64,000 nt of DNA from Deltaproteobacteria bacterium (GTDB taxonomy: Bacteria; Desulfobacterota; Syntrophia; Syntrophales; UBA2210), in contig JAFGTS010000026.1 of the NCBI GenBank assembly GCA_016933965.1, forward strand, positions 1-64,000. Direction: 5' to 3'. Shown here in pieces: positions 23,224-33,820 of the stretch (position 1 is the first letter of the stretch; every line of letters begins with the position of its first letter). The translations under genes were made by a program, and so were the position numbers. The notes below the pieces were generated by a model. That model was not told where the DNA came from and made no database searches. It was given only the letters and a program-made list of their open reading frames with translations.

Positions 23224-23919
23224 TCACCTGATGTGGACCTGCTCCACCCAGTGTTCAAGTTTTTTTCCTATTACCTGAAGCTCGTCGCTGGAAAGGGATT
23301 CTTCATGCATGAAAGAGGGATCAACGGTTTTTGAAGGTATGAATTTCTGGAGCACCAGGCGGCGGGCTCCCGAAACAAGCCTTCCGATGCTGAGCAGGTC
23401 CCGGCGGGTGAGGAGTGAGCGTACTACGGTCGTGCGGAATTCATAATCAATTCCTGAGGCCATGACGGTCTCTATGCTTTTCCGAATGTCCGCCTTGGTT
23501 ACTTTTACCCGCGCGACCGATTCATATTTGGCCAGGGGGGCCTTCACGTCCATTGACAGAAAGTCGATGAGGCCCTTATCGATCAGTTCCGCGATTACAG
23601 CGGGACGGGAACCGTTCGTGTCGATCTTTATGATGTAGCCCATCGACTTGATCTCCTTTATGAAATCGACAATGTCGCCCTGCAGTGTCGGTTCTCCTCC
23701 CGTCACTGAAAGGGCGTCCAGTTTGTTCCGCCGTCTGTCGAGGAAGGAGAGTACGTCGGGAACGGGAACTAGATCACCGAAGAGCTCGGGAAGCACGAGC
23801 TCGGGATTATGGCAATAGGGACACCGGAAATTACAGCGGCGCGTAAATAGAACGGCACAGATCTTCCCGGGGAAATCGATGAGGGAGAATTTTTGCAGCG
23901 CGGCGATTTCCATTGTCAT
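23224..23919 (-). CDS. nrdG: Anaerobic ribonucleotide reductase activating protein (NrdG)
   Basis: Radical SAM enzyme that generates the glycyl radical on NrdD. The [4Fe-4S] motif CNFRCPYC (Cys29, Cys33, Cys36) and the GGEPTLQ SAM-binding motif are present. 231 residues. The start overlaps the nrdD stop by 4 bp (ATGA), so synthesis of the two is coupled. Transcribed from the NrdR-box promoter upstream of nrdD. Confidence 0.94.
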   Translation of the reverse strand: MTMEIAALQKFSLIDFPGKICAVLFTRRCNFRCPYCHNPELVLPELFGDLVPVPDVLSFLDRRRNKLDALSVTGGEPTLQGDIVDFIKEIKSMGYIIKIDTNGSRPAVIAELIDKGLIDFLSMDVKAPLAKYESVARVKVTKADIRKSIETVMASGIDYEFRTTVVRSLLTRRDLLSIGRLVSGARRLVLQKFIPSKTVDPSFMHEESLSSDELQVIGKKLEHWVEQVHIR

Positions 23920-26003
23920 ACTTTGAAAACGGTACGAGAAGCGAATTCCGCCTGCTTACCCTTGTTCCATTGTTTCACGGGCCGGAGGTAACCGACGACG
24001 CGGGTGAATACTTCGCAGGATTCACCGCAGGTGGGGCACGTCTCCTGTTCACCCTTCAGATACCCGTGATTCTGGCAGACGCTGAAGGTGGGAGAAAAGG
24101 TAAAATACGGCAGGTGATACTGTTCGCATATCCGCCGGACCAGTACCTTGATGGCCGATGCATCGTCTATCCGCTCACCGGCGTAGATGTGAAACACCGT
24201 TCCCCCGGTATAGCGGGTCTGAATGTCATCCTGCAGGTCGAGGGCCTCAAATATGTCATCCGTGTAATTCACCGGCAATTGCGTTGAATTGGTATAGAAT
24301 ACCGATGATGCACCGCCGTCACCGTTGGCGGTCGACAGGATGATATCGGGATACCGTTCCTTGTCCTTGCGGGCAAGGCTGTGTGACGTTCCCTCTGCCG
24401 GGGTCGCTTCAAGGTTGTAGTTGTTTCCCGTTTCTTCCTGAAACTCGAGGAGCTTGTCACGCATGAAATCAAGAGTCTCTCTGGTGAATTCGAGTCCTTC
24501 CGGGTCGGCGATCGATTTTCCGAGGAAATTGAGGCAGGCCTCATTCATTCCCACGAGGCCGATCGTGGAAAAATGGTTTTTCCAGTATTCTCCGAAACGC
24601 TCCTTCATGTGACGGAGATAATACTTCGTATAGGGATAGAGGTTTCCATCGGTGAACTTTTCGAGTACCTTGCGCTTCGTTTCCAGGCTTTCCTTGGCCA
24701 TGACCATAAGTTTCGTGAGACGTTCCCGGAACTCTTCCTTTGTCCCGGACAGGTAACCGATCCGTGGCATGTTCATGGTGATGACGCCGATGGAACCGGT
24801 CAGGGGATTGGAACCGAACAGACCGCCCCCCCGCTTTACCAGTTCGCGGTTGTCTATTCTGAGCCGGCAGCACATGCTGCGAGCGTCTTCCGGGCTCATG
24901 TCCGAATTGATGAAATTCGAGAAGTAGGGGACACCGTATTTTGCGGTCATTTCCCACAGGTTGTCGAGGTGGGGGTTATCCCATTCGAAGTGTCGGGTGA
25001 TGTTGTAGGTCGGTATGGGAAATGTAAAAACGCGTCCCTTCGCGTCACCCTCAGCCATCACCTCCAGGAAGGCCTTGTTCAGTATGTTCATCTCTTCCTG
25101 GAAATCCCCGTAGGTTTCCGTGAGTGGAACACCGCCGATAATGACGTTCTTGTCGGTGTAGTAGGGAGGAACCTCGATGTCGAGGGTCACGTTCGTGAAG
25201 GGTGTCTGAAAGCCGACGCGGGTCGGGACGTTGATGTTGAATATGAACTCCTGAAGGGCCTGTTTGACCTCGTTATAGGTAAGGTCATCGTATCGTATGA
25301 ACGGTGCGAGGAGGGTGTCGAAATTCGAGAATGCCTGTGCCCCCGCCGCCTCACCCTGCAGGGTGTAAAAAAAGTTGACCACCTGTCCCAGTGCGCTGCG
25401 AAGATGTTTCGCAGGCTTGCTTTCAACCTTTCCGGATGCCCCCTTGAACCCTTCAAGAAGCAGGTCGTAGAGGTCCCATCCCACGCAGTAAACGGACAGA
25501 AGGCTCAGGTCATGGATATGAAAATCACCGTTGTGCTGGGCCTGTCGTATCTCGTCAGGATATATTTTATTCAACCAGTACACCTTGCTGACTTCGGACG
25601 AGACATAATTATTGAGGCCCTGCAGGGAATAATCCATGTTGCTGTTCTCATTGATCTTCCAGTCCATCTTCTGAAGGTACTGGTCAACCAGGTCCACCTC
25701 CATCTTGTTCGCTATTTCACGGAGCCGGGCATGCTGGTCTCGATAGATGATATAGGCCTTGGCGGTTTTTCGGTATGATGAGTTGAGAAGAGCGTCTTCC
25801 ACGATGTCCTGAATTTCTTCGACGGTCATGATCTTGTCGTCAAAGAGTTTTTCAGCGAGAGTCAGGACCCTTATGGTCAAGCGCTGGGCGTCCTTTTCAC
25901 TGAACTCACCGGTTGCTTCTCCCGCCTTTGCTATGGCATTCGTGATCTTCGAAGCATCAAACTTGACCAGACGGCCATCGCGCTTCCTGATTTTGGTATG
26001 CAT
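23916..26003 (-). CDS. nrdD: Anaerobic (class III) ribonucleoside-triphosphate reductase
   Basis: Oxygen-sensitive glycyl-radical enzyme making deoxyribonucleotides. Visible in order: ATP-cone allosteric domain (about 1-95), reductase barrel, a C-terminal zinc site (CQNHGY...CPTCGESC) and the glycyl-radical loop VVGYLRPVKQWN with the radical Gly close to the C-terminus. 695 residues is typical. It is the first gene of nrdDG and lies divergent from purB across 189 nt. Confidence 0.97.
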   Translation of the reverse strand: MHTKIRKRDGRLVKFDASKITNAIAKAGEATGEFSEKDAQRLTIRVLTLAEKLFDDKIMTVEEIQDIVEDALLNSSYRKTAKAYIIYRDQHARLREIANKMEVDLVDQYLQKMDWKINENSNMDYSLQGLNNYVSSEVSKVYWLNKIYPDEIRQAQHNGDFHIHDLSLLSVYCVGWDLYDLLLEGFKGASGKVESKPAKHLRSALGQVVNFFYTLQGEAAGAQAFSNFDTLLAPFIRYDDLTYNEVKQALQEFIFNINVPTRVGFQTPFTNVTLDIEVPPYYTDKNVIIGGVPLTETYGDFQEEMNILNKAFLEVMAEGDAKGRVFTFPIPTYNITRHFEWDNPHLDNLWEMTAKYGVPYFSNFINSDMSPEDARSMCCRLRIDNRELVKRGGGLFGSNPLTGSIGVITMNMPRIGYLSGTKEEFRERLTKLMVMAKESLETKRKVLEKFTDGNLYPYTKYYLRHMKERFGEYWKNHFSTIGLVGMNEACLNFLGKSIADPEGLEFTRETLDFMRDKLLEFQEETGNNYNLEATPAEGTSHSLARKDKERYPDIILSTANGDGGASSVFYTNSTQLPVNYTDDIFEALDLQDDIQTRYTGGTVFHIYAGERIDDASAIKVLVRRICEQYHLPYFTFSPTFSVCQNHGYLKGEQETCPTCGESCEVFTRVVGYLRPVKQWNKGKQAEFASRTVFKV

Positions 26004-26040: not shown

Positions 26041-26089
26041 CCACAATATATAGTGCAGACATGCTAATACTAATACTATATGTAGTCAA
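26041..26089 (-). promoter_or_regulatory. nrdDG promoter with two NrdR-like boxes
   Basis: Minus-strand -35 TTGACT (26084-26089), 17-nt spacer, -10 TAGCAT (26061-26066). Box 1 is 26041-26056 (ccacaatatatagtgc), 14 of 16 positions like the NrdR box ACACwATATwTwGTGT. Box 2 is 26073-26088 (atactatatgtagtca), 12 of 16. The starts are 32 bp apart, about three helical turns, the usual arrangement. Box 2 lies in the spacer/-35 and box 1 at the likely start site, as expected for repression by NrdR. The nrdR gene is not in the window. Confidence 0.75.
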
Positions 26090-33719: not shown

Positions 33720-33772
33720 TCAAACCCTTCCCTGCGGCGTGATGAAAATGCCCCCTCTGCACATTTCCTCTT

Positions 33773-33820
33773 ACACTACATATTGTGTTCATCTATAATA
33801 CGAATACTATATGTAGTCAA
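33773..33820 (-). promoter_or_regulatory. PilZ/HD-GYP operon promoter with NrdR-like boxes
   Basis: Minus-strand -35 TTGACT (33815-33820), 17-nt spacer, -10 TATAGA (33792-33797). Box 1 at 33773-33788 (acactacatattgtgt) matches the NrdR consensus at 15 of 16. Box 2 at 33804-33819 (atactatatgtagtca) is identical to box 2 of nrdDG; starts are 31 bp apart. The flanks (aatac before, caag and aaaattt after) are also conserved between the two loci, so one was probably copied from the other. Confidence 0.75.

Follow-up and report, generated by a model that had tools for sequence, protein, structure and literature searches.

The stretch of DNA analysed here (the window; 64,000 nucleotides) contains two promoters with paired NrdR-type boxes. 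One precedes nrdDG, and the other, 7.7 kb away, precedes an operon for a PilZ protein and an HD-GYP protein. NrdR is commonly treated as a repressor specific to ribonucleotide reductase (RNR), and topA was the sole direct non-RNR target that we found in the literature. The question was whether a PilZ/HD-GYP operon is also under NrdR control, as proposed in the initial annotation, and if so, how general this is.

The PilZ/HD-GYP and nrdDG loci

All features of the two loci lie on the minus strand. The PilZ locus starts with an HU/IHF-family gene (34255-33974; Pfam Bac_DNA_binding), a syntenic marker whose position was kept in boxed relatives. It is followed by the boxes (33819-33773), the PilZ gene (33719-31587) and a GAF-PAS-HD-GYP gene (31590-29269; Pfam HD_5, 127.8 bits, GAF and PAS), which shares 4 bp with the PilZ gene in the same operon. 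The HD-GYP protein has the HD motif at 626 and the GYP motif at 687, and phosphodiesterase activity is predicted.

In an AlphaFold2 model of the PilZ protein (710 aa; pLDDT 84), fold matches place a PilZ domain (Pfam PilZ) between a YcgR-like N domain and a tandem-GNAT fold. The PilZ domain of the model matched 4xrn (Z 12.9). The C-terminal fold matched a histidine acetyltransferase (Z about 12); such an activity is putative. The motifs of a cyclic-di-GMP receptor, RxxxR and [D/N]xSxxG, were recognisable in part. The N domain carries R149xxxR153 and DFSPLA. The second PilZ domain has DISTTG at 280 and a degenerate RxxxR, in which R244 is conserved and R248 is not. The predicted order of a YcgR-like N domain and a PilZ domain resembles that of the YcgR/MrkH-type proteins, from which the protein differs in this degenerate motif and in the added GNAT fold.

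At the other locus, nrdD (23916-26003; Pfam NRDD, 673.6 bits) encodes a class III RNR with an ATP-cone, and nrdG (23224-23919) its radical-SAM activase, as judged from Pfam Radical_SAM and its position after nrdD. Class III was the sole RNR detected in this genome; a PF02867 search returned no class I or II enzyme.

The boxes were compared with the 16-bp palindromic NrdR consensus, ACACWATATWTWGTGT, and scored with a matrix for which the training set was 21 nrdD promoters and nothing else (that of this genome and 20 from relatives). Before PilZ, the start-site-proximal box, ACACAATATGTAGTGT (33773-33788), had one mismatch and scored 21.9 bits. The distal box, TGACTACATATAGTAT (33804-33819), scored 18.1 bits and overlaps the -35 hexamer TTGACT (33815-33820). 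The spacer between them is 15 bp. TTGACT faces PilZ, the start of which is 54 bp from the boxes, and is followed after 17 nt by a weak possible -10 hexamer, TATAGA (33792-33797). Before nrdD, the proximal box (26041-26056) had two mismatches, and the distal box (26073-26088), which also overlaps the -35 region, lies beyond a 16-bp spacer. These mismatch counts bore out the earlier fits of 15/16 at PilZ and 14/16 at nrdD. The placement of the PilZ boxes, at the -35 and in the start region, predicts repression.

The distal box is the same at both promoters (ATACTATATGTAGTCA) and was found nowhere else in the window, even at three mismatches. TTGACT and the 17-nt spacer are also common to both, followed by TATAGA at PilZ versus TAGCAT at nrdD; the promoter scan listed only the nrdD promoter. 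Local alignment of the two promoters gave 34 identical bases out of 38 and a score of 56, while 2000 shuffles gave 15.4 +/- 2.4 with a maximum of 29. The shared bases run from the upstream flank through the -35 and the distal box into the start of the spacer, confirming the resemblance noted earlier (shared TTGACT, 17-nt spacer, identical second box and matching flanks).

In the sister genus (G001), the stretch that runs from TTGACT into the start of the spacer is present at the nrdD promoter too, and absent from the PilZ promoter. This pointed to nrdD as the likely donor. The distal half of the PilZ promoter in this genome appears to be a copy of the nrdDG promoter close by. Local duplication or conversion probably placed it on, or next to, an NrdR site that was already there.

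With the nrdD-trained matrix, the four PilZ and nrdD boxes were the only places in the window at or above 14 bits. The genome-wide statistics came from a pattern search of the 2.85-Mb genome and from simulations based on the window's composition. Six simulated Markov-3 genomes of 2.85 Mb contained no box pair of 20 bits or more. In the real genome, a search that allowed two mismatches found sites before nrdD and PilZ, between murF and mraY (a pair) and before smc (with a weaker partner box at a spacer of 14), and nowhere else. Box pairs in this genome therefore precede only four operons, nrdDG, PilZ/HD-GYP, mraY and smc.

Box pairs before PilZ orthologues

PilZ orthologues were present in 57 of 100 relatives. 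Named records contained them as well, both from Syntrophales and from other groups of deltaproteobacteria. Among 115 distinct PilZ upstream regions, strong pairs (33-43 bits) were found in five, with none expected under the nrdD-only matrix. A sixth region (L247) had a weak pair only, and in 109 the pair was absent. The reversed nrdD matrix found no pairs in the same 115 regions. The five boxed genomes are this one, the sister genus G001, and three members of family f15 (G048, G068 and G076). In g6 and g7, the closest other genera within the family, nine genomes had not one strong box before PilZ. Pairs before PilZ orthologues were thus clustered in two lineages and absent from most other orthologues, including those of these nearest genera.

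In the PilZ tree, this genome and G001 grouped together (support 86), and the f15 genomes lay elsewhere. The tree required three changes of the box label, at least two of them on starred branches, which indicated separate gains or several losses. On these comparisons, the link between NrdR boxes and PilZ is real where present, but patchy.

The f15 loci also differed in the partner gene. An HU gene lies upstream in all three, and about 340-540 bp separate the boxes from the start of PilZ. The gene after PilZ, 200-330 bp away, encodes a hybrid histidine kinase, not an HD-GYP protein. This leaves the PilZ protein, rather than cyclic-di-GMP hydrolysis, as the shared target. The proposed control of the PilZ/HD-GYP operon was therefore supported by the recurrence of NrdR-type pairs before PilZ, and weakened by the missing HD-GYP partner in f15 and by the many orthologues without boxes. 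The long distance between boxes and PilZ in f15 and the weak -10 in this genome also count against it.

We consider it likely, with good confidence, that the PilZ/HD-GYP operon is a direct NrdR target, belonging to an enlarged Syntrophales regulon that would join dNTP synthesis to envelope and chromosome functions. A rival reading is that the PilZ promoter is a passenger, a partial and perhaps recent copy of the nrdDG promoter made by duplication or gene conversion, which NrdR would bind without a selected role. The 34/38 identity reaches past the boxes into the flank and spacer, the G001 nrdD promoter marks nrdD as the likely donor, and most relatives lack the boxes, all as expected from such a copy. 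On the other hand, the strong PilZ pairs of G001 and the three f15 genomes were not copied from their own nrdD promoters. G001 keeps its pair while its PilZ protein is only 49% identical to that of this genome, which suggests selection, and a number of further non-nrd genes have box pairs in more than one lineage (see below). We therefore regard the passenger explanation as improbable.

The boxes might instead serve another transcript. This could run toward HU as an antisense RNA, or it could be a small RNA or leader that lies between PilZ and the boxes. A promoter-like CTTACA-18-TATAAT is present on the plus strand at 33770-33799, and the long distance to PilZ in f15 also speaks for this reading. 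The f15 leaders, however, matched no Rfam family at a meaningful score. In this genome the boxes are close to PilZ with TTGACT facing it, and in each of the five boxed genomes the first recognisable gene that follows the boxes on that strand is PilZ. These observations made a different transcript very improbable.

NrdR as the regulator

Direct NrdR control remained the preferred reading, and NrdR itself was examined. The genome has exactly one nrdR (TIGR00244, 200 bits), adjoining a dCMP-deaminase-like gene and glyA, both named from their sequences. The protein has D15, R17, R26-R29 (RRRR), R37 and the CxxC pairs, which contact DNA or zinc in the solved NrdR complex (PMC9110341); its DNA-reading residues are thus intact, as are the Zn-ribbon and ATP-cone typical of this repressor. 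In the order, nrdR was found in 147 of 155 genomes, always as a single copy apart from one genome in which the match was split. A third ATP-cone match (L003) was rejected; it sits in an HD-domain protein and was below the cut-off.

The boxes also agreed with known binding requirements. Spacers of 14-17 bp, with the boxes about three helical turns apart, were bound by all four NrdRs tested (PMC12051234), and the spacers here, 14-16 bp, are inside that range. The PilZ boxes keep C4 and G13, which do not vary among the nrdD boxes and match the GC pairs required for NrdR binding (PMC9110341). A single intact NrdR, permitted spacing, and the same kind of pair before the PilZ orthologues of four other genomes in three genera make it very probable that these are true NrdR sites. 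Use of these palindromes by some other regulator was the least probable alternative. The AT-rich, palindromic nature of NrdR boxes speaks for it. Against it, nrdD and nrdJ have identical boxes at this spacing throughout the order, and each genome has one NrdR with no second paralogue and, here, with its DNA-reading residues intact.

The DNA-binding NrdR tetramer arises with dATP plus ATP (PMC9110341). In the proposed mechanism, NrdR loaded with dATP plus ATP would bind the box pair and, judging from the box positions, would repress the PilZ/HD-GYP operon. Under high dNTP demand, both this operon and nrdDG would be open. NrdR might in this way also affect cyclic-di-GMP or surface behaviour, as suggested in the initial annotation.

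A wider set of box pairs in Syntrophales

Box-pair sequence models were run over the 100 relatives and all 155 genomes of the order, and genes at the matched regions were named by tblastn and Pfam. The E-values of the models are not independent, because the models were trained on some of the sites; the recurrence of gene identities is. As expected, sites preceded nrdD (47 loci of relatives plus this genome) and nrdJ (15).

Several non-nrd genes recurred behind box pairs; those pairs that were scored for these targets with the nrdD-only matrix reached about 23-39 bits. The most frequent was a divergent polysaccharide deacetylase (PF04748) with a TAT signal, read from the sequence and not by a predictor, in 11 genomes of families f1, f15 and f16 (L111, L115, L121, L129, L136, L248, L258, L268, L278, L280 and L293). 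A pair in the murG-murC gap, before murC, was found in eight genomes of f16 and f19 (L100, L117, L132, L133, L134, L138, L296 and L298). Within the mur operon, the pair between murF and mraY was found in three genomes of the same family: this one (L056:3609-3655 on G000:C18), G001 and G004 (L108 and L092). A pair preceded smc in this genome, G009 and G080, which represent two families (L057:4271-4316, L114 and L135). PilZ had pairs in the five genomes named above, and a DUF882 peptidase was found behind a pair in G001.

This arrangement resembles the known NrdR regulon of RNR operons in the palindrome, the paired boxes with 14-17 bp spacers, the overlap with the -35 and start region, the single nrdR, and nrdD and nrdJ as core targets. 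It differs in the addition of the PilZ operon, mraY/murC, smc and the polysaccharide deacetylase. The published NrdR regulons of proteobacteria are small, with a tabulated average of 3.2 per genome, and are described as deoxyribonucleotide biosynthesis (PMC5343134). A precedent is topA of Pseudomonas aeruginosa, a non-RNR gene directly under NrdR (PMC4409342). That case involves a single box and activation, unlike the promoter-overlapping pairs and predicted repression here. Effects of NrdR on motility in E. coli have been reported, with the mechanism not known (PMC4898720). A literature search on NrdR with smc or mraY found nothing related; earlier prediction of some of these targets is possible. 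In the portions of the sources available on NrdR with c-di-GMP or biofilm, none was presented as being about NrdR.

Judging from the recurrence of these sites, control by NrdR in Syntrophales very probably extends to the PilZ operon and also, depending on the species, to genes for the cell wall and for chromosome segregation. This suggests that dNTP supply may be tied to cell-surface growth in this order. A broader possibility, which we put forward with rather less than even confidence, is that NrdR acts there as a growth coordinator. Rising dATP would repress dNTP synthesis, mraY/murC, the TAT-signal deacetylase, smc and PilZ-GNAT together, so that the dATP/ATP ratio would couple replication to envelope growth. 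If true, a dATP-sensing repressor on PilZ, peptidoglycan and smc genes would connect the dNTP pool directly, at the level of transcription, with the biology of the envelope and the chromosome.

The models also returned other sites. In G006 (L290), a box-pair-like site was seen before an SLBB/polysaccharide-export protein that carries a SPOR domain, and in G009 (L285) a similar one before an 892-aa ORF. Pairs lay directly upstream of an uncharacterised family of 74-88 aa (L095:3575-3799 and L105:3210-3476), the first of which had no Pfam match. Strong pairs lay at the 5' end of another uncharacterised family, of 128-142 aa and with no Pfam match, in two f15 genomes (L089:2071-2499 and L094:3567-3953). 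In G107, about eleven near-identical box-pair sites were on separate contigs (for example, L266:2964-3010). They were apparently carried by a multi-copy element, the 558-aa ORF of which ends at the site.
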